Source of the DNA: Candidatus Desulforudis audaxviator MP104C
Lineage (GTDB): Bacteria; Bacillota; Desulfotomaculia; Desulfotomaculales; Desulforudaceae
Length of the DNA: 64,000 nt
Direction of reading: 5' to 3'
Assembly: GCF_000018425.1 (NCBI RefSeq)
Contig: NC_010424.1
Coordinates: forward strand, 1,690,501 to 1,754,500
Part shown: positions 43,203 to 52,735 of the stretch, one piece after another
How the letters are laid out: every line of letters begins with the position of its first letter
Numbering within the stretch: position 1 is the stretch's first letter
Position numbers and translations under genes: made by a program
The notes under the pieces: generated by a model
Told to the model about the DNA's origin: nothing
Database searches by the model: none
Seen by the model: the letters and a program-made list of their open reading frames with translations, nothing else

Positions 43203-44324
43203 TTAGCCGGCCGCGGTCCGCCGCTCGTACTGGTAGAATGCGGCGCAGGCCCCTTCCGACGACACCATGCACGGGCCCACCGGGTGGCTCGGCGTGCAGG
43301 CGGTCGCGAACAGCCGGCAATCCCGCGGGGTGAGCTTCCCCTTCAGAAGGTCCCCGCACCGGCAGCCCTGCGGGATCCGCGGGGCGGCCACCTCGGGCGC
43401 GAAACGGGCCCGGGCGTCAAACTCCCGGTACTCCGGCTTCAGTTCCATTCCGCTCCCCGGGATGGTTCCAAACCCCCGCCAGGAAACATCGGCAATCTGG
43501 AAGAACCGGTCCAGAGTCTCCTGGGCCCGGACGTTCCCTTCCTCCCGCACCACCCGGGTGTAACCGTTAACCACCCGGGGCGGGTCGTCGGATATCAGCT
43601 GCTGCAGGAGGTTGTAAAGCGCGTCCACGATATCCAGCGTCTCAAAGCCGGTGATCACGGAGGGCAGCCCGTACTCCTCAGCGATGAAGTCGTAGGCGCG
43701 GCGGCCGATGATCGCCGAGACGTGGCCGGGCAGGATCAACCCGTCGAGTTTCATTTCCGGATCGGAACCGAGCGCGGCAAGCGCCGGGGGCACCACCTTG
43801 TGCACGGTGAACACGCTGTAGTTCTTCAGCCCCAGCGCCTTGGCTTGGGCCACGCTCAAAGCCACGGCTGGCGCCGTGGTCTCGAAACCCACCCCCAAAA
43901 ACACCATTTGCCGCTCCGGGTTCTCTTTAGCCCACTTCACCGCGTCGGCTGGCGAATAAAACACCCGAACGTCGGCGCCCCGGGCCTTTTCCCGCTCGAG
44001 CGAGGTCCGGCTGCCGGGCACGCGCACCATATCGCCGAAAGTGCCCACCGTCACCCCGGGCAGCCGCCCGAAGGCCACCATGGCGTCGATGTCGCCGTAG
44101 TCGGTCACGCACACCGGGCAGCCCGGGCCGCTCCGGAGTTTGAGTTTTTCTTCCAAAAGGCTTCTCAAGCCCGCCTTCGAGATGGCCACCGTGTGGGTGC
44201 CGCAGACCTCCATGAAGACCGGCGGGCGTCCCAGCTTGTCCCGTGCCCGGTCGGCCAGCGCGATCACCTTTTCCAGGAGCGCCCGGCCGAGTTCGGGATC
44301 ACGAAACCTGTCCAGGATATGCAT
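43203..44324 (-). CDS. hypD: Hydrogenase maturation protein HypD
   Basis: 373 residues. Iron-sulfur scaffold where Fe(CN)2CO is assembled with HypC. Seen: FMEVCGTHTVAISKAGL (His and Cys), SGPGCPVCVTD, FETTAPAVAL, PGHVSAIIG and the cluster-binding GCRCGDLLKGKLTPRDCRLFATACTP near the end. ATG at 44322-44324 overlaps the hypC end by 26 bases. Confidence 0.97.
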   Translation of the reverse strand: MHILDRFRDPELGRALLEKVIALADRARDKLGRPPVFMEVCGTHTVAISKAGLRSLLEEKLKLRSGPGCPVCVTDYGDIDAMVAFGRLPGVTVGTFGDMVRVPGSRTSLEREKARGADVRVFYSPADAVKWAKENPERQMVFLGVGFETTAPAVALSVAQAKALGLKNYSVFTVHKVVPPALAALGSDPEMKLDGLILPGHVSAIIGRRAYDFIAEEYGLPSVITGFETLDIVDALYNLLQQLISDDPPRVVNGYTRVVREEGNVRAQETLDRFFQIADVSWRGFGTIPGSGMELKPEYREFDARARFAPEVAAPRIPQGCRCGDLLKGKLTPRDCRLFATACTPSHPVGPCMVSSEGACAAFYQYERRTAAG

Positions 44325-44541
44325 CTCTCAAAATCTCCTCCCACAGCTTCAGCCGGATTTGGGCCTCTTCCACGTCGAGCTTCTCGATGGCGTAGCCGGT
44401 GTGCACAATGAGGTACTCCCCGGTGTGCACCTCGCCCACCAGAAACGTGCTGATCTCCCGCTGCACGCCGAAGATCTCAATCACCGCGCTGTCCGATTCC
44501 GGTTTCACGTCCACCACAAGACCCGGTATACCTAAACACAT
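44299..44541 (-). CDS. hypC: Hydrogenase maturation chaperone HypC
   Basis: 80 residues. Carries the Fe(CN)2CO group to the large subunit through Cys2; the conserved MCLGIPG start is present and so is a VGEVHTGEYLIVHTGYAIEKLD core. It overlaps hypF by 10 bases and hypD by 26, so hypF-C-D are coupled. Confidence 0.97.
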   Translation of the reverse strand: MCLGIPGLVVDVKPESDSAVIEIFGVQREISTFLVGEVHTGEYLIVHTGYAIEKLDVEEAQIRLKLWEEILRDAYPGQVS

Positions 44542-46817
44542 TCCTTACTCCACCTCCGGTATGCGATTACAGCCTGACCCAGGCAAAGTCCCCCGTCGTT
44601 CGCCGGCACCTGCCGGTGCGTGAGTACCCGGAATCCGTCCAGCGGCAGGGTTTCCCGCGCGCGCCGGAAAAGGTACCGGTTCTGCCAGGTGCCGCCGCTC
44701 AAAGCCACGGTACGAAGCCCCGTCGCCGCGCCCACCCGGCGCACGGCTTCGCGCACCATCTCCAGGACGGTGTTGTGGAAGCGGGTGGCGATCGTCTCCA
44801 CGGGCACCCCCCGCTCCAGGTCCTCCACCACCCCGGCGACCGTACCCGCCGCCGAAATCGTTCCCTCTTCAATTGAAAAAGGATAGACCCCGAGCTTCGC
44901 GCCTTCAGCGTCGTCGCGCACGAGTTCCCCCAGTTCGATCGCCGCCTGGCCCTCGTAGGTGCTCCGCGTGCACACGCCCACCAGCGCCGCCACCGCATCG
45001 AACAGCCGGCCGCAGCCCGAACTCGGCGGGGCGTTGAAACCCTTGGCGAGCATCCGGCGCACCACGTCCAGCTCCAGGCCGTGGCCGCCGAACAATCGCC
45101 CGGCCGTCCGGTCGCCGTCCTCGCCCAGGTAGGTCAGAAGGTAGGCAACCGCCGTGCGCCAGGGGGAGCGCACCGCCGCCTCGCCGCCCGGCAGGGGCAC
45201 GGGGGCGAGGTGCATCTCCCGCTTAAAACCCAGGCAGTCGCCGCTTATTATCTCAAAACCCCACAGCGTGCCGTCCGGACCGTAGCCGGTGCCGTCCAGG
45301 ATCACCCCGATCGCCCGCTCGTCCACCAGGCCATTGTCGGCCAGGCAGGACGCCAGGTGGGCGTGATGGTGCTGCACCTCGTAGCGCTTTTCCGCCGGCA
45401 CCTTCCGGGCCAGGCGCGAGGAACGGTAGTCGGGGTGCATGTCGTACCCGACCACCTCGGCCTCGATGTCCAGGAGCCGCTGGAAGTTCAACAAGCTGGA
45501 GAAAAGGTTCTCCTCGCCCTCCAGGTGGTCCAGTTCCCCGATGTGCTGGCTCACGAAAGCCCGCCCCTTTTTGAGCAGGCAGAAGGTGTTCTTCATTTCG
45601 CCGCCGATGCCCAGCACCACCGGCCCGTCCCCGGTCGGGACGCGCACCGGCACCGGCACCCAGCCGCGCGATCGCCGCAGGAGCTGCACTTCCCCGTCCA
45701 TCACCGCCGCCAGGGAGTCGTCGCACCGGTTCACGATCTCCCGGTTGTGCCAGAGGAAGTAGTCGGCGATGCCGCCCAACTCCGCCAGCGCCCGGACGTT
45801 CTCCTTCGCCAGCGGCAGTTCGCTGTAGTTGCCGCTGGTCATCACCAGAAGGTCGAACGGCCCGGTGAACACCAGAAAGTGCAGTGGGGTGTACGGGAGC
45901 ATCACCCCCAGGGTCTTGAGGCCCGGCGCGAGTTCAGGCGGCAGGTCGGTCCCCGGCCGCCGCTTGAGGATCACGATCGGCGCCTCGGGGGAAGTCAGGA
46001 GTTCCCGCTCCTGATCGTTTAAGTGGCAGTACCGCTCCACCACGGCCGGGTCCCGGGCCATCACCGCGAACGGCTTAGCGTCGCGGCCCTTGCGCCGCCT
46101 GAGTTCCCGCAGGGCATCGCGGTTTTGCGCATCGCACACCAGGTGAAATCCGCCCAGGCTCTTCAGGGCCAGGATGCGGCCTTCGGCCAGGAGGTCCCAG
46201 CAGTTCCGCCGCCACTCGCCCGGCACCGGCTTGCCGCCGGCGTCCACCAGTTCCACGGCCGGGCCGCACACCGGGCAGGCCACCGGCTGGGCGTGAAACC
46301 GGCGGTCGGCCGGGTCGTGGTACTCCCGGGCGCAGTCCGGGCACATGGGAAAGACGGCCATCGAAGTCTTCGGCCGGTCGTAGGGCAGCTCCCGGACGAT
46401 GGTGAACCGGGGGCCGCAGTTAGTGCAGTTCGTAAACGGGTAGCCGTAATGCCGGTCTTGGGGGTCGAAGGTCTCCCGGGCGCAGTCCGGGCAAAGGCCC
46501 ACGTCCGGCGGCACCAGCGCTTCGATCTCCGCGCCGCCCGTGCTGGCGATGATCTCAAAACCGGTGTGGCCCGCCGGGGGCAGCGCTTCCCAGGACACCT
46601 CGTCCACCCGGGCCAGCCGCGGCGGATGCGCCCGCACCGCCTCCAGGAAGCGGCGCACGGCGTCCGGCGCACCCTCGGCGTCCACGATCACGCCCTGGCC
46701 CGCGTTCAGCACGCTGCCGGCGATCCCGCAGTCCCGGGCCAGGTTATAGATGAACGGGCGGAAACCGACGCCCTGGACGGTGCCCCGGACGACTACCCGG
46801 TAACGGACCCTTCCCAT
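44532..46817 (-). CDS. hypF: Carbamoyltransferase HypF
   Basis: 761 residues. Transfers a carbamoyl group from carbamoyl phosphate to HypE. Domains in order: acylphosphatase (RYRVVVRGTVQGVGFRPF, 3-90), two zinc-finger motifs (CPDCARE..., CTNCGPRFTI, about 105-185), YrdC-like (about 200-370) and Kae1-like carbamoyltransferase with HHAHLASCLAD and ALSGGTWQNRYL. ATG 46815-46817 is the family start; the frame continues upstream through a degenerate copy of the hypB 3' end. DNA of codons 1-11 is also part of that duplication. Confidence 0.95.
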   Translation of the reverse strand: MGRVRYRVVVRGTVQGVGFRPFIYNLARDCGIAGSVLNAGQGVIVDAEGAPDAVRRFLEAVRAHPPRLARVDEVSWEALPPAGHTGFEIIASTGGAEIEALVPPDVGLCPDCARETFDPQDRHYGYPFTNCTNCGPRFTIVRELPYDRPKTSMAVFPMCPDCAREYHDPADRRFHAQPVACPVCGPAVELVDAGGKPVPGEWRRNCWDLLAEGRILALKSLGGFHLVCDAQNRDALRELRRRKGRDAKPFAVMARDPAVVERYCHLNDQERELLTSPEAPIVILKRRPGTDLPPELAPGLKTLGVMLPYTPLHFLVFTGPFDLLVMTSGNYSELPLAKENVRALAELGGIADYFLWHNREIVNRCDDSLAAVMDGEVQLLRRSRGWVPVPVRVPTGDGPVVLGIGGEMKNTFCLLKKGRAFVSQHIGELDHLEGEENLFSSLLNFQRLLDIEAEVVGYDMHPDYRSSRLARKVPAEKRYEVQHHHAHLASCLADNGLVDERAIGVILDGTGYGPDGTLWGFEIISGDCLGFKREMHLAPVPLPGGEAAVRSPWRTAVAYLLTYLGEDGDRTAGRLFGGHGLELDVVRRMLAKGFNAPPSSGCGRLFDAVAALVGVCTRSTYEGQAAIELGELVRDDAEGAKLGVYPFSIEEGTISAAGTVAGVVEDLERGVPVETIATRFHNTVLEMVREAVRRVGAATGLRTVALSGGTWQNRYLFRRARETLPLDGFRVLTHRQVPANDGGLCLGQAVIAYRRWSKECV

Positions 46818-46957
46818 TTCCGACGCGCGATTTCCCTGAGCCAAAGGCACCATGCCTCCACACTCCGGCCGGTGGGCGGCCGAGGTCATAAACAGCTGAA
46901 TTTCCGGATTGACGGTCCGGATTTCGGCTTGCACTCTATTCATACCAGAATCGGTGC
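46787..46957. repeat. About 170-base direct repeat, copy A (degenerate hypB 3' end plus hypF start)
   Basis: Closely similar to 47697-47866 (estimated above 80% by eye). Copy A encodes, with frame disruptions, NRVQAEIRTVNPEIQLFMTSA, the counterpart of hypB NKVQAEIRTINPEIQIFVTSA, and continues into the first eleven hypF codons. The two copies bracket the 739-base insertion described below. Confidence 0.8.
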
Positions 46958-46969
46958 ACAAAAGCAAAC

Positions 46970-47152
46970 CCAAAGCATCTTCTGGAACGACTCGATCTGG
47001 TTCAGGAAGTCGATGATCCGGCCGCCGACGGCCTTGATGACCCGCACCATCTGGAACCAGTTCTCGGCGTGGTCCTCGCCGGCGGTCTCCATCTCGTCAA
47101 GATTCAGCACTTCGTTCTTCAGATAGAAGTCGAGCTCGCAGGAGAGGAACCC
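46970..47152 (-). pseudogene. Fragment of a type III DNA methyltransferase (Mod)
   Basis: 61 open codons without a start. They contain GFLSCELDFYLKNEVLNLD, ENWFQMVRVIKAVGGRIIDF and LNQIESFQKMLW, a pattern (RELDFYxKNEVLxLD...KIIxFLAQIEDFQKxLW) I know from the N-terminal half of site-specific adenine methyltransferases of type III restriction systems. A TAG bounds it upstream, and frame is lost where repeat copy A begins. No restriction gene or methylase motif (DPPY) is present, so it is a remnant. Confidence 0.7.
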
Positions 47153-47189
47153 CTACAGGGATATTTTTCAGGCGGGTAAGGTATCCCGG

Positions 47190-47597
47190 CTACCACATTG
47201 TTGATAGATACCAGACGACAGCCGCCACCACCGCGATCGCCAAGGCGACTTTGATAAAACCGCTTACTGCTTTAAATACGAAGAGCCCTATCAGGAAGGC
47301 CGCGATCACAAGAAGGATCGGTAGCCCTTTGACGAAGTCGAACGCTTGCTGTACTTGATCCCCGGCAATTTCTTTGGCACCCTCAAGCTTGGTCGCCAGT
47401 TGCTCCTCGATCTTCTGGGTCAGTTCGGTCGCGGCCTTCTCCATTTGTTTTTCCAGGGTTTCGCTTGAACCGTCAGAACCCCACGCGGGTGCACCGGCGA
47501 ATGCAAAGGCGACCAGCAAAAGTAGAACCCAACAAACAAACTTGGTTTGCAAACGAGCTCGCGGAAACAAACCGCGGACGCAGAGCTGACGCATGGA
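47190..47597 (-). CDS. Small membrane protein with signal-like N-terminus, unknown function
   Basis: 135 residues from ATG 47595-47597. A hydrophobic segment FVCWVLLLLVAFAFAGAPAWG (about 20-40) looks like a signal peptide, followed by a short helical, charged stretch (KQMEKAATELTQKIEEQLATKLEGAKEIAG) and a C-terminal transmembrane segment (ILLVIAAFLIGLFVFKAV) with a second hydrophobic stretch. SD is weak. It lies inside the hypB-hypF insertion and I do not recognise a family. Confidence 0.5.
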   Translation of the reverse strand, partial: SMRQLCVRGLFPRARLQTKFVCWVLLLLVAFAFAGAPAWGSDGSSETLEKQMEKAATELTQKIEEQLATKLEGAKEIAGDQVQQAFDFVKGLPILLVIAAFLIGLFVFKAVSGFIKVALAIAVVAAVVWYLSTMW

Positions 47598-47696
47598 AAG
47601 CACCCACAATCTGTTATCTTCTTGCACTTTCGTAAGAAACCGGCGCGAAAAGTTCTTTCGTTCCAGCCCCCATATGTGTTCCGGTGCCGGCAAAGC

Positions 47697-47866
47697 GGAC
47701 GACTACCCGGCAGCGTGCCCTTCCCGTTTCCGACGCACGATTTCCCTGAGCCAGAGGCACCACGCCTCCACACCCTCGCCGGTGGTGGCCGAGGTCACGA
47801 AGATCTGGATTTCCGGGTTGATGGTCCGGATCTCGGCCTGCACTTTATTCATATCAAAATCAGTGT
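47697..47866. repeat. About 170-base direct repeat, copy B (hypB 3' end)
   Basis: The intact counterpart of copy A, covering the last 54 hypB codons. The bases just after the hypB stop still match the hypF start region of copy A (GGGTAGTCGTCCG), showing that hypB once ran directly into hypF. Confidence 0.8.
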
Positions 47867-48392
47867 AAGGAAGCAGATCGCTCTTGTTGATAACCACGGT
47901 GTGGGACTCCTTGAACACCAGCGGGTACTTGGTCGGCTTGTCGCCGCCCTCGGTCACGCTCAGGAGCGCCGTCTTGTAGTCCTCGCCCAAGTCGAACTCG
48001 GCCGGACAGACCAGGTTCCCCACGTTTTCGATGAACAGGAGGTCCAGCCGGTCGAGGTCCAGCTGGTCGAGGGCGCGTCCGACCATGTTCGCATCCAGGT
48101 GGCAAAGCCCCCCGGTGTTGATCTGGACCACCGCGGCCCCCCGGCCGGCGATCCGCTCGGCGTCGCGGGTGGTGTAGATGTCGCCCTCCACCACCCCGAT
48201 TCTGAATTCGTCCCGCAGGGTGATGATCGTCTTCTCTAAGAGCGTCGTCTTGCCGGCACCCGGCGAGCTGATCAGGTTCACCGTCGTCAGCCGTGCCAGG
48301 CGTTCCCGGTTTTCACGGGCCACCTGCTCGTTCGCCCGCAGGATCTTCTGGGCCATTACCACCTTCACGTTCATCTTCCTTTCCATCATCAC
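47703..48392 (-). CDS. hypB: Hydrogenase nickel-insertion GTPase HypB
   Basis: 229 residues. SIMIBI GTPase that with HypA inserts nickel. Walker A ISSPGAGKTTLLEKT (about 42-56), EGDIYTTRDAERI, the Cys-His pair NTGGLCHLDANMV that binds metal at the dimer interface, FIENVGNLVCPAEFDLGE and NKSDLLPY. It lacks the N-terminal His-rich nickel store. It overlaps hypA by 80 bases; ATG 48392 or 48374 are both possible. Confidence 0.96.
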   Translation of the reverse strand: MMMERKMNVKVVMAQKILRANEQVARENRERLARLTTVNLISSPGAGKTTLLEKTIITLRDEFRIGVVEGDIYTTRDAERIAGRGAAVVQINTGGLCHLDANMVGRALDQLDLDRLDLLFIENVGNLVCPAEFDLGEDYKTALLSVTEGGDKPTKYPLVFKESHTVVINKSDLLPYTDFDMNKVQAEIRTINPEIQIFVTSATTGEGVEAWCLWLREIVRRKREGHAAG

Positions 48393-48723
48393 CTTCGAAA
48401 AAGTCTATGTACAGTTCCCGCCCGCCGGTGATGCGGGCGCGCCCGCTGCACTCCGGGCAGAAGTAGGCCAGCTCGTCCGTCACCGTCCGGGCGCCGCAGT
48501 GCTCGCACTCCAGGGTGATCGGCACCGTCTCGATCTCCAGTTGGGCGCCCGCGAATATCGTTTCCGGAGTCAAGACCGTAAACGCGAACTCCAGCACGTC
48601 GGGCAGCGCGCCGTTCAAGCGCCCGACCACCAGGCGCACCTTGGTCACCCGCGTGATGTTGCTCCGGGCGGCCACCTGGGAAATCTCATTCATCACCGTC
48701 TGGATCAGTCCCACTTCGTGCAA
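48313..48723 (-). CDS. hypA: Hydrogenase nickel-insertion protein HypA
   Basis: 136 residues. MHEVGLIQTVMNEI gives the nickel-binding His2, and the zinc site is CEHCGARTVTDELAYFCPECSG (pairs near residues 73-76 and 91-94). TTG start at 48721-48723 after GGAGGAGGAG. The family usually ends near GRELYIDFFEG (about 113); here the frame runs 22 residues further into hypB, giving an unusually acidic then Gly/Pro tail. Confidence 0.93.
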   Translation of the reverse strand: MHEVGLIQTVMNEISQVAARSNITRVTKVRLVVGRLNGALPDVLEFAFTVLTPETIFAGAQLEIETVPITLECEHCGARTVTDELAYFCPECSGRARITGGRELYIDFFEGDDGKEDEREGGNGPEDPAGERAGGP

Positions 48724-48740: not shown

Positions 48741-48899
48741 CCAGCCGGCACCGCTTCGCGCCCGGCGCCTCACTCCGCATCCAGCCGGCCAAATTCGTGC
48801 ACGGCGCTTCGCTCTGCATCAAACCGGCGCCACTTCACATATGGCTTTTCACTCCCCCTCCAGCCAGCGCCGCAGTTCCCGGCGCACCGCCGCGGCCGC
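48741..48899. repeat. 40-base degenerate tandem repeat around the hypA start
   Basis: Units begin CCAGCCGGC (48741), CCAGCCGGC (48781), AAACCGGCG (48821) and CCAGCCAGC (48860), a period of 39-40 bases. The last unit is the 3' end of the maturation protease gene; the first adjoins the hypA SD and start. Each unit carries a GGAGTGA- or GGAGTAA-like string, so the hypA initiation region seems to be a product of local duplication. Confidence 0.6.
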
Positions 48900-49334
48900 G
48901 CGGGGCACCGCCTCCGCCACCGCCGGCATAAGGCCCATGTGCCAGGGCTCGACGTTCGCGACCGTGATCCCGATGACCACCACCTCTGCCGGCAGTTCCA
49001 GGACCCCGGACTTGCGCCCGAACTCCAGGGCATCGCGCACCCCGATGTCGTGTACCGAAAGCGGCGGCGCCTCCTTGCGGGGCACCTCGTCCTCGCGCCA
49101 GCGGACCACCAGGCCGGGCTCCATGTCCGCAGCCAGCACCGCGTCCACGATCACGGCCTTGTCGGCGCCGTACATGAGGTCGAGCATCCCCAGGCCCGGC
49201 GCGCCGGCCTCCACCACGGTCACCCCGTCTGGAAGCGGCTCCTTCTCCAGCTCCCGCAGCACCTCGATCCCCACCGCATCGTCACCGGCGAAGATATTGC
49301 CGCACCCCAGCACCACAATCCTCTTCTTCCCCAT
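48849..49334 (-). CDS. [NiFe] hydrogenase maturation protease
   Basis: 161 residues, HyaD/HycI/FrcD-like family (M52). It removes the C-terminal peptide of the large subunit after nickel insertion. Seen: VLGCGNIFAGDDAVGIEVL (Asp/Glu nickel-sensing site, 8-26), VDAVLAADMEPG and the His of LSVHDIGV (about 95). The target is presumably MvhA, which has a C-terminal extension after DPCFSCATH. ATG with GGAGGGGGAGA directly upstream. Confidence 0.92.
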   Translation of the reverse strand: MGKKRIVVLGCGNIFAGDDAVGIEVLRELEKEPLPDGVTVVEAGAPGLGMLDLMYGADKAVIVDAVLAADMEPGLVVRWREDEVPRKEAPPLSVHDIGVRDALEFGRKSGVLELPAEVVVIGITVANVEPWHMGLMPAVAEAVPRAAAAVRRELRRWLEGE

Positions 49335-49881: not shown

Positions 49882-51339
49882 CTACCTGCTCAGGGTCTTA
49901 TACAGTTCGCCCTTGCTGTCGTAGATGTTCACCGTCAACGGCAGCTCGCCCAGAACGGCGTGTGTCGCGCAGCTGAAGCACGGGTCGTAGGCCCGGAAGG
50001 CCATCTCCACCATGTTCAGTAGGCCGTTGGTGATCTCCACACCCGGCTTGATGACGCCCATCGCCGCCTTCTTGATGGCCATCGAGATCGGGGCGTTGTT
50101 GTTGGTGGTGCCCACGATCAGGTTCGCCTTCACCACGATGCCGTTCGGATCGGTGGCGTAGTGGTGGGTCAGCGTGCCGCGCGGCGCCTCGATAATTCCG
50201 ACGCCCTCCTTCGGGGTGCCGGTCGGGATATTCCGGATGTCGGGGCTGGTGATTTCCTCGTCCAGTGCCAGCTCCAGCAGACGCTCCGCCGCGTACATCA
50301 GCTCCACCAGGCGCGCCCAGTGAGTGGCCAGCACGGCGTGGGTCGGACGGCCCAGAACCGAGATGAACTTCTCGTAGGCTTCCTGCGCCAGCGGAGTGGC
50401 CATACCGTCGCAGGCGTTGATCCGGCCCAGGGGAGCCGCCTGGTAGATGGCGGTGCCGGGGCCTTCGACGAAGCCGGTCCAGCCGAACTTCTTCAGGTAC
50501 GGGTACTTCAGGTAGCTGTAAGGCTCGACATGCTCGGCCACGTAGTCCACGTACTCGCGCGGGCCGTACTTGAACAGCTCCTTGCCTTCGGTGTCCACCA
50601 CGCGGACCTTGCCCTCGTAGAAGTTAATCTTGTTGTTCTCGTCCACGAGGCCCATGTAGTTGGTTTCGAGCCTGAAGATATCACCCACGATCAGGTCGAC
50701 GTACGCCTGATTCGCCAGCACCACGTCGTCAAAGAGCTTCAGGGAGAACTTGGCAAACTCCACGCAGGACTTGGCCATTTCCACGACCTGCTTGCGCTCG
50801 TCCTCGGTGAGCCCCTTGCTCACGCCGCCGGGAAGGGTCCAGGCCGGGTGGGTGGCCTTGCCGCCCAACATCGCCTGAATCTGCTGCCCGTAAGCCCGGT
50901 GCTTGATCACCTCGCCGCCGATCTCCAGGCCCACCTTGCCGATCACGCCTAACACGTTGCGCACGGCCGGGTCGGCGTCCGGGCCCATCACGAAGTCCGG
51001 CGCCGCCAAAGCATAAAAGTGGGCGATGTGGCTGTGGACCATATGGGCGCTGTAGTAAAGCTCGCGCAGTTTCTTCGCCGCCGGTGTCGGCTCGACGCCG
51101 AACACCATATCCATGGCCTTACCCGAGGCCAAGTGATGTGCGGCCGGTCAGACGCCGCAGATGCGGCTGACGATCTGCGGGACCTGGTCGGCCGGACGGC
51201 CCTCGCAGAACTTCTCAAAACCGCGAAGCTCCGGGACCTGGAAGTAGCAGTTTTCCACACCCCCCGCATCGTTCAGGAAGATCTCGATCTTCCCGTGGCC
51301 CTCAAGCCTGGTGATCGGATCAATGGAAATGCGTTGCAT
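49882..51339 (-). CDS. mvhA: [NiFe] hydrogenase large subunit (MvhA type), predicted selenoprotein
   Basis: 485 residues when TGA 51148-51150 is read as selenocysteine (U64). Heterodisulfide-reductase-linked, F420-non-reducing hydrogenase catalytic subunit. Segment 1 ends RICGV, the TGA follows, and PAAHHLASGKAMDMVFGVEP continues in the same frame. The family reads RxCGxCPxxHH here, so TGA replaces the second L1 cysteine. The C-terminal motif DPCFSCATH (Cys454, Cys457) is normal and is followed by a 25-residue tail for the maturation protease. A hairpin 22 bases after the TGA fits a SECIS element. The ATG shares TAATG with the mvhG stop. A plain TGC-to-TGA mutation is the alternative. Confidence 0.88.
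51114..51131 (-). promoter_or_regulatory. Predicted SECIS hairpin in mvhA
   Basis: UGGCCU (51131-51126), loop CGGGUA (51125-51120), AGGCCA (51119-51114): six perfect pairs. The apical loop starts 23 bases after the UGA and has G in its second position, matching the bacterial rule (16-37 bases to the loop, a G in the first two loop bases). Confidence 0.7.
51148..51150 (-). other. In-frame UGA, predicted selenocysteine codon (MvhA U64)
   Basis: Lies between GTC (Val63) and CCG (Pro65). By alignment it is the second cysteine of the L1 motif, equivalent to a cysteine bridging nickel and iron in [NiFe] hydrogenases. Confidence 0.8.
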
Positions 51340-52292
51340 TACTTAGCCCTCCTTAACAGCGAACCAGGCAGACCGTAGCGGTAGAACAAGCCCGCCGGAT
51401 CGGCTATTTCGCTGATTATCCGGTCAGCCTCATCGGGGGAGTCGGCGTCAACTACGGAAGCCAGCGCCGAGATGTACTTGGCGCCCTGGTCGATAACCCC
51501 GTCGACCGGACCGTAACAGCCGGTGCACGGCTGGTTGGCGCTGACGCACTGGTTGCCACAGCCGGCCCGGGTCACCGGACCCATACAGGTCAGTCCCTGC
51601 TCCAGCAGGCATTTCTCCGGATCGGTGATAATCTGATACGGCTGGTAGAATTTCTTGACTTTCTTGTCGGTCTTGGTCCGCGTGCAGGTGTTGCACAGCG
51701 TCTGGTTCTCGCAGCCGACAAACGCGCCCTTGGGCGGCAGCGCGCCGGAAGCAATCACCTGGATGACCGCCCAGATCTGAGCCGAGGTGGGTGGGCAGCC
51801 CGGCATGAAGTAGTCGACGTCCACCACGTCGCTCAGGGATTTTACCTCTTTATAGAACTCGGGAAGCTCCAGAACACCCTCCGGCACCGCGTAGTGCGTC
51901 TGCGGATAGACCTTTTCCGGGTTCTGGGTAGATTGGCTTTCAATATACACCCGGTAGAAAATGTCGTTCTTCTGCTTGAAGTTCGCCAATCCCGGAATCC
52001 CGCCCGAGATGGCGCAGGAACCGAAGGCCACCATCACCTTCGACTTCTTCCGGAGCAGCTTCGCGACATGTTCACCCTCAGAGTTGCGGATGGCCCCGTG
52101 GAACAGGCACACATCGATGAATCCGTCCTCGTAGCCTTCCACGTCCGCATACTTAAAGTCCACGGCGATCGGCCAAAACACGATATCGGCCACCGCGGCC
52201 ACATCCACGATCTTTTCGTGAATGTCGAGGATGGCCACGTCACAGCCGCCGCAGGCTGCCGCCCAGTAGGAAGCTAACTTCAACTTACTCAT
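51339..52292 (-). CDS. mvhG: [NiFe] hydrogenase small subunit (MvhG type)
   Basis: 317 residues. Electron-transfer subunit with three iron-sulfur clusters. The proximal-cluster ligands start in WAAACGGCDVAIL (Cys14, Cys17), then AFGSCAISGGIPG and MPGCPPTSAQIW. The C-terminal part has CTRTK, CLLEQGLTCMGPVTRAGCGNQC and CTGCYGPV for the medial and distal clusters. No Tat signal, so the enzyme is cytoplasmic, as expected for the Mvh type. ATG at 52290-52292, 2 bases after the mvhD stop. Confidence 0.95.
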   Translation of the reverse strand: MSKLKLASYWAAACGGCDVAILDIHEKIVDVAAVADIVFWPIAVDFKYADVEGYEDGFIDVCLFHGAIRNSEGEHVAKLLRKKSKVMVAFGSCAISGGIPGLANFKQKNDIFYRVYIESQSTQNPEKVYPQTHYAVPEGVLELPEFYKEVKSLSDVVDVDYFMPGCPPTSAQIWAVIQVIASGALPPKGAFVGCENQTLCNTCTRTKTDKKVKKFYQPYQIITDPEKCLLEQGLTCMGPVTRAGCGNQCVSANQPCTGCYGPVDGVIDQGAKYISALASVVDADSPDEADRIISEIADPAGLFYRYGLPGSLLRRAK

Positions 52293-52294
52293 GT

Positions 52295-52735
52295 CTAACC
52301 CTCCCCACCGGCAGCCGCTTTTTGTTCGGACTTAAACGGCCCCAGCTGCCGAAGCTCTTCGGTGAATTCAGAGATCACCTTGGCGAACTTGGTGCCCTCC
52401 GCCGAGGAGATCCATTCTAACCGAACCCGTTCGTCCTCAACACCCAGTTGGTTCAAAACCATCTTCATCAGCTGGAAGCGCCGCTGGGTTTTGTAATTGC
52501 CACTAACATAGTGGCAGTCGCCGATGTGTCAACCAGCAACCAGTACGCCGTCCGCACCGTCACTCAAGGCCTTGAATACGAATTGCGGGTCGACGCGCCC
52601 CGAGCACATTAACCGAATGATCCGTACGTTAGGTGGATACTGTAGCCTGGACACGCCGGCCAGGTCAGCGCCACCGTAACTACACCAGTTGCATAGAAAA
52701 CCGATGATCTTGGGTTCAAATTTGGTGTTCGCCAT
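52295..52735 (-). CDS. mvhD: Mvh delta subunit (hydrogenase iron-sulfur subunit), predicted selenoprotein
   Basis: 146 residues when TGA 52529-52531 is read as selenocysteine (U69). MvhD passes electrons from the hydrogenase to heterodisulfide reductase (HdrA) through a [2Fe-2S] centre. Segment 1 has [18 protein letters not shown] and MCSGRVDP and ends GVLVAG; after the TGA the frame continues [18 protein letters not shown], the family motif G-C-H-x-G-D-C-H-Y with the first Cys replaced. The frame then stays open to the normal C-terminus. A strong hairpin follows at SECIS spacing. ATG with GGGGCGGGA upstream. Confidence 0.9.
52498..52516 (-). promoter_or_regulatory. Predicted SECIS hairpin in mvhD
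   Basis: UGCCACUA (52516-52509), loop UGU (52508-52506), UAGUGGCA (52505-52498): eight perfect pairs. The loop starts 21 bases after the UGA and has G in its second position, a very good match to the bacterial SECIS rule. Confidence 0.8.
52529..52531 (-). other. In-frame UGA, predicted selenocysteine codon (MvhD U69)
   Basis: Between GGT (Gly68) and CAC (His70), in place of the first cysteine of GCHxGDCHY. Archaeal VhuD proteins are known selenoproteins, which gives precedent for selenocysteine in this family. Confidence 0.85.

Follow-up and report, generated by a model that had tools for sequence, protein, structure and literature searches.

The group 3c hydrogenase large-subunit gene mvhA carries an in-frame TGA in place of the second cysteine codon of its L1 motif. 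We consider it highly probable (roughly 0.92) that this codon is read as selenocysteine (Sec) by SelA, SelB, SelD and tRNA-Sec together with a hairpin that follows it, which would make MvhA a [NiFeSe] hydrogenase with a bridging selenolate; the same would hold for a second, HysA-type hydrogenase of the same genome. The evidence consists of the codon and its conservation, hairpins that are frozen at the synonymous level, the decoding machinery, the recurrence of the arrangement and one apparent return to cysteine. Coordinates (Table 1) refer to the window, that is, the whole 64,000-nt stretch of DNA analysed, unless a contig is given; the host genome is G000 and its contig is G000:C1.

Table 1. 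Features of the hydrogenase region and of related loci elsewhere
Feature	Position	Strand	Remarks
mvhA / vhuA-like [NiFe] hydrogenase large subunit, group 3c type	49882..51339	-	485 aa with TGA as Sec
TGA codon 64, predicted Sec at the L1 second Cys (RICGV-U-P)	51148..51150	-	Ni-Fe bridging ligand by homology
bSECIS hairpin TGGCCT-CGGGTA-AGGCCA	51114..51131	-	Loop 22 nt past UGA; 17-nt core in 17/17 Sec-type mvhA
L2 motif DPCFSC	49967..49984	-	Both L2 ligands Cys; unlike the known NiFeSe arrangement
mvhG-like hydrogenase small subunit	51339..52292	-	Oxidored_q6; VhuG 224.7 bits
mvhD-like subunit, predicted selenoprotein of the known MvhD kind	52295..52735	-	FlpD match
Hydrogenase maturation endopeptidase, HyaD/HycI type	48849..49334	-	ORF list, named from sequence
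hypA, hypB, hypF, hypC, hypD maturation genes, downstream of mvhA	43203..48723	-	ORF list, named from sequence
selD, two genes	G000:C1:1618939-1619862 and 2090681-2091601		In-frame TGA in each
HysA-type group 1 large subunit with L1 TGA	G000:C1:1095001-1096455 (L106 4502-5959)		QRICGV-TGA-PISHG; L2 DPCIAC
MvhA of G196 with L1 Sec codon (L075 / L109)	G196:C19:63222-64667		Own short hairpin, different from main clade

The TGA codon of mvhA

The initial annotation had proposed that an in-frame TGA replaces the second L1 cysteine of MvhA, that coding similarity persists beyond it and that L2 reads DPCFSC, and all three statements are confirmed. From its start at 51339 on the minus strand the mvhA frame is interrupted only once, by the TGA of codon 64 (51150-51148) in the context SRICGV-TGA-PAAHHLASGKA, after which it stays open down to a normal stop at 49882 and includes an intact L2 motif. 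In [NiFe] hydrogenases the second cysteines of L1 and L2 bridge nickel and iron, whereas the NiFeSe enzymes replace the first cysteine of L2; in the enzyme of D. gigas, for example, Cys68 and Cys533 are bridging and Cys65 and Cys530 are terminal. We take codon 64 to specify a bridging ligand, the role of the aligned cysteine being that of the established structures; the annotation's distinction between a bridging L1 position and the terminal L2 Sec of NiFeSe enzymes is correct as judged by homology and by what is established. The read-through protein aligns over its full length with solved MvhA/VhuA chains, scoring 410.7 bits over residues 2-481 in an end-to-end alignment with the MvhA of PDB 5odc, and there codon 64 falls on the second cysteine of RICGIC. 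Its best family is NCBIfam VhuA (431.6 bits, which is under the 800-bit equivalog cut-off), and it also has a Pfam PF00374 match. Full-length homology, the L1 and L2 motifs and the MvhD and MvhG operon partners place it among the group 3c MvhA/VhuA proteins, and its in-frame UGA stands, as in bacterial selenoproteins, where homologues have a cysteine.

The genes mvhD and mvhG lie directly upstream of mvhA. Within the maturation cluster, positions 46793 to 47000, located at the hypF start and upstream of it, are similar to the C-terminal portion of hypB (VQAEIRT.NPEIQ), apparently as a broken partial duplicate.

The TGA at the L1 codon of mvhA is present in 17 of the 113 genomes of the order, with exactly one in-frame TGA per gene, and a check of the codons found it at L1 in all 17. 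Homologues have TGA, TGC or TGT at precisely this codon; among the named public assemblies, 9 of 22 relatives have TGA and the others TGC or TGT, these nine being largely the same organisms as within the 17, which is the count to use. Since TGA is one base from TGC, a sequencing or assembly error that conceals a true TGC would suffice as an explanation were a single genome affected. However, TGA and a hairpin that the Cys genes lack occur together in 17 genomes, so that an artefact is extremely improbable; for the main clade the independent genomes refute it, and the presence of TGA in many separate genomes contradicts TGC as the true codon. For the singletons G196 and G147 (see below), with one genome each, a base error is possible. 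It is likewise hardly credible that mvhA is a pseudogene, or that it yields a truncated product of 63 residues with the remainder a relic. Although the stop codon breaks an otherwise intact gene, which annotation pipelines would split or drop, the dN/dS values downstream of the TGA (0.07-0.18 in the pairs tested) indicate purifying selection, the 17 Sec-type genes contain no other stop or frameshift, and the L2 motif and the operon are conserved.

The probable SECIS hairpin and the selenocysteine machinery

A 16-nt spacer (51147-51132) separates the TGA from a hairpin made up of the stem TGGCCT (51131-51126), the loop CGGGTA (51125-51120) and the returning stem AGGCCA (51119-51114). The published bSECIS model specifies a loop of 3-9 nt, a stem of 4-16 bp, a G in the first two loop positions, a distance of 16-37 nt from the UGA and an MFE of at most -7.5. 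With a stem of six, a loop of six, a G at loop position 2, an energy of -8.5 kcal/mol when folded alone and the spacing given in Table 1, every one of these constraints is satisfied by the mvhA hairpin. The six-base stem at SECIS distance, with its G within the first two loop bases, is therefore as the initial annotation had described it, and the SECIS check that it suggested around 51147-51100 finds that the published model fits.

By itself this hairpin is modest or even weak evidence, and fold energy alone does not reveal the element. Single hairpins are not unusual for GC-rich coding DNA, and a scan behind every codon found an equally good one after 0.9-3.7% of the other codons in the same mvhA genes. 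The 48-nt fold after the mvhA TGA has z = -0.4, and in most cases examined the single-sequence z-scores of such 48-nt stretches lie around zero or above it. Rfam, at its gathering threshold, gave no match within the window, and the near-invariance of the main helix leaves little covariation to test. What lifts the hairpin above chance is its conservation and, as the strong test, its synonymous freeze. All 17 Sec genes retain TGGCCTCGGGTAAGGCC unchanged and none of the Cys genes has it, and the exact 17-mer core of the hairpin is found in all Sec genes of the main clade and in none of the Cys genes compared; the Cys homologues are mostly without any qualifying hairpin at the equivalent place. 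Of 242 degenerate codons whose amino acid is invariant, 13 (5%) do not vary among the 17 Sec genes; five of these 13 are the consecutive codons 71-75 (GCC TCG GGT AAG GCC), which are the hairpin. In a permutation test of the longest run, such a five-codon freeze was obtained in 0 of 200,000 trials.

The host genome is closed, a single contig of 2,349,476 bases that is 99.98% complete, and all four of the genes whose presence the proposal calls for were found in it: selC, encoding tRNA-Sec (74.5 bits), selB (344.6 bits), the adjoining selA (636.8 bits) and selD, which is present twice. MvhD belongs to an accepted selenoprotein family, according to a 2026 review of prokaryotic selenoproteins, and the TGA of the mvhD gene in the window, at 52531-52529 within VAG-U-HIGDCHY, has a strong hairpin behind it. 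The Sec of MvhD was considered as the cause of that in MvhA and rejected, as seen from loci L051-L056 and L058, which combine a Sec MvhA with a Cys MvhD.

It seems very unlikely that the UGA is read as cysteine, or as some other amino acid, by a readthrough that involves no selenium. Cysteine is likely the ancestral residue, and reading it at codon 64 would keep the normal ligand of the enzyme. Nevertheless, the full Sec machinery, the bSECIS geometry and the frozen hairpin all speak against this, the accepted selenoproteins MvhD and SelD of the same genome use the same codon, and a TGA with a frozen hairpin would be pointless were cysteine wanted. If the codon is indeed one for Sec, SelB and the hairpin would direct selenium insertion at codon 64 to give a full-length MvhA with the L1 sequence RICGVU, and the Hyp proteins encoded downstream would load the cofactor. 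The nickel site would then consist of three cysteines and one Sec, with the latter bridging to iron rather than being terminal. In the HysA-type group 1 enzyme of the same genome, the same replacement would be served by a different SECIS element.

Comparison with known selenium hydrogenases

In the openly accessible literature searched, no description of an L1 Sec in a natural [NiFe] hydrogenase was found. The table of the 2026 review gives hydrogenase alpha subunits only as UxxC, and a 2022 review likewise has hydrogenase selenium only in this form; the initial annotation's remark that no example at L1 had been characterised is thus borne out for the literature searched. The genome paper of Desulfotomaculum gibsoniae Groll lists an MvhADG-like enzyme, and the word "selenium" does not occur in it in any of the word forms searched for.

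As in the [NiFeSe] HysAB enzymes of Desulfovibrio vulgaris and Desulfomicrobium baculatum, the codon for one of the four nickel-ligand cysteines has been replaced by one for Sec. However, the Sec of HysAB is the first L2 residue (DPUxxC) and a terminal nickel ligand, whereas in both host enzymes it is predicted at the second L1 position, where it would be bridging, and L2 has the form DPCxxC (DPCFSC in MvhA and DPCIAC in the second hydrogenase). Selenium would replace a ligand sulfur just as in the known NiFeSe enzymes, but, judging by sequence, at the bridging position of L1 and not at L2. The methanogen VhuA/VhuU and FrhA proteins are also group 3 catalytic subunits with Sec, in operons with an MvhD-type subunit that is sometimes a selenoprotein too. 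Their Sec is in the UxxC of L2 (in M. voltae on a separate small VhuU), in contrast to the L1 position in the host MvhA, and their SECIS elements are archaeal and mostly in the 3' UTR, whereas that of the host mvhA is bacterial and inside the reading frame. The bacterial MvhA2DG of Db. autotrophicum HRM2 has been called a "selenocysteine-containing hydrogenase", but in the passage concerned it is the mvhD subunits, and not mvhA, that are among the selenoproteins, and that passage describes no L1 Sec (PMC2702500). Finally, Sec has been placed artificially at each nickel ligand of E. coli Hyd-1 and Hyd-2, including the equivalent position (Evans et al. 2021, 2024), and according to papers citing this work the activity was reduced and a benefit reported only for L2.

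Sec might also be inserted and yet make no stable Ni-Fe bridge in the folded enzyme, leaving a terminal selenium or a rearranged site. A displaced cysteine reported for the H. thermoluteolus SH indicates that group 3 enzymes are capable of rearranging their coordination (PMC10214449). Nevertheless, the homology to the bridging cysteines of solved MvhA and HysA, and the fact that the other three ligands are unchanged, make such a site very improbable. A bridging Sec64 should be structurally tolerable: in a Ni-Fe model complex selenium lengthens the bonds to the metals by about 0.1 angstrom and alters the Ni-Fe distance little (PMC4510704), so that the site should accommodate the swap.

As to what a bridging selenolate might be for, our leading guess, a speculative one, is that it makes oxidative damage reversible or reactivation faster; the guess derives from an O2-tolerant group 3 enzyme in which the tolerance comes from reversible sulfoxygenation of the bridging cysteines (PMC12596923). 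A speculative alternative is the tuning of redox potential for the uptake of H2 at low concentrations. The engineered Hyd-1 counts against the proposal, since there Sec at any of the four nickel ligands lowered H2 oxidation and O2 tolerance rose only for the L2 terminal site (PMC9961374). This loss implies either that the natural enzymes have compensating surroundings or that they put selenium to some other use. The natural selenium so far listed in [NiFe] sites is at the terminal L2 position, which underlies the arguments about proton transfer, O2 tolerance and the bias towards H2 production. If the present reading is true, selenium between nickel and iron would mark the bridge itself for spectroscopy (77Se, Se K-edge), and would raise the question of the role of the bridging chalcogenolate in catalysis, protection and cofactor assembly.

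Recurrence and origins of the L1 codon

A hydrogenase-family search of the host genome found the HysA-type TGA gene, which adjoins a gene for a Tat-signal small subunit and has ferredoxin-like and NrfD-like genes downstream (these partners were named from sequence). The closest solved relatives of its product are the D. vulgaris [NiFeSe] hydrogenases, with Sec at L2 (496 bits to 5jsu), and its TGA aligns with the second L1 cysteine of solved HysA. A third [NiFe] large subunit of the host (2,044,076-2,045,437) has cysteine at all of these positions. The HysA-type L1 TGA is found in nine genomes of the order and is followed in all nine by the invariant codons CAC GGC ATC AGT TCG GTG CTA, a freeze of seven consecutive codons that was equalled in 1 of 200,000 permutations. 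The corresponding hairpin, GGCATC-AGTTC-GGTGCT, bears no relation to the mvhA one and has its loop 18 nt past the UGA. Folded alone it has an energy of -6.6 kcal/mol, slightly short of the model's -7.5 (the 48-nt fold gives -10.3), and the background scan found an equally good hairpin after 8-17% of the other codons of the gene.

A search of the 398 genomes of the phylum with the pattern RICG[VIM]-TGA-P gave eight matches in five genomes, and the reversed control gave none. It added G147, from another family of the phylum, with a HysA-type gene that has the L1 TGA (L140 / L148, G147:C4, ~105216) and a strong hairpin, GACAGC-GGCTGC-GCTGTC, with a stem of 6-7 bp. For a gain in this single genome separate from that of the main HysA-type clade, the AU test gave p = 0.28.

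On the MvhA tree, the distribution of Sec needs three changes. The Sec MvhA of G196 falls outside the main Sec clade (a single Sec clade is rejected with AU p = 2.7e-6) and represents a separate gain; this genome has tRNA-Sec, and its MvhD is also of the Sec type. The Cys MvhA proteins of G001 and G002 (L057 and L059), on the other hand, lie within the Sec clade (a clade purely of Sec forms is disfavoured with AU p = 0.015). On their long branch HHLASGKA has become HHICAGKA or HHVCAGKA and a matching hairpin is missing, although both genomes still possess tRNA-Sec; the simplest reading is apparently one reversion to cysteine. Since MvhA and the HysA-type proteins are distant relatives, with cysteine in most members of each, their L1 Sec codons are separate gains. 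The best reading is then that hydrogenases with an L1 bridging Sec evolved at least three times.

These origins, in hydrogenases of more than one kind and with SECIS hairpins that bear no relation to one another, argue for a real advantage. We think it likely that there is a natural class of bridging-selenolate [NiFe] hydrogenases, gained at least twice in group 3c MvhA and also in HysA-type group 1 enzymes (where one lineage would have Sec at L1 and a neighbouring one at L2), and that it reflects a property selected in deep-subsurface and other anaerobic users of H2. Because gene calling that stops at TGA truncates such enzymes, the hydrogen metabolism of Desulforudis and its relatives may be misread.

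In the neighbouring family f2, three group 1 matches with one TGA each (L133, L137 and L138, from genomes G002, G004 and G005) were rejected as L1 cases; their TGA is at L2 (residue 461), with a cysteine at L1, and they are classical NiFeSe enzymes. No gene among those examined has Sec at both L1 and L2. Recoding of TAA or TAG in group 1 matches was also rejected, the codon in L124, L126, L129 and L131 being the ordinary C-terminal stop. One further HysA-type gene, L139 (G006:C16:34826-36199), has a serine (AGT) at the second L1 cysteine and a TAA at the L2 Sec position, and is probably an odd, decayed copy or something odder.
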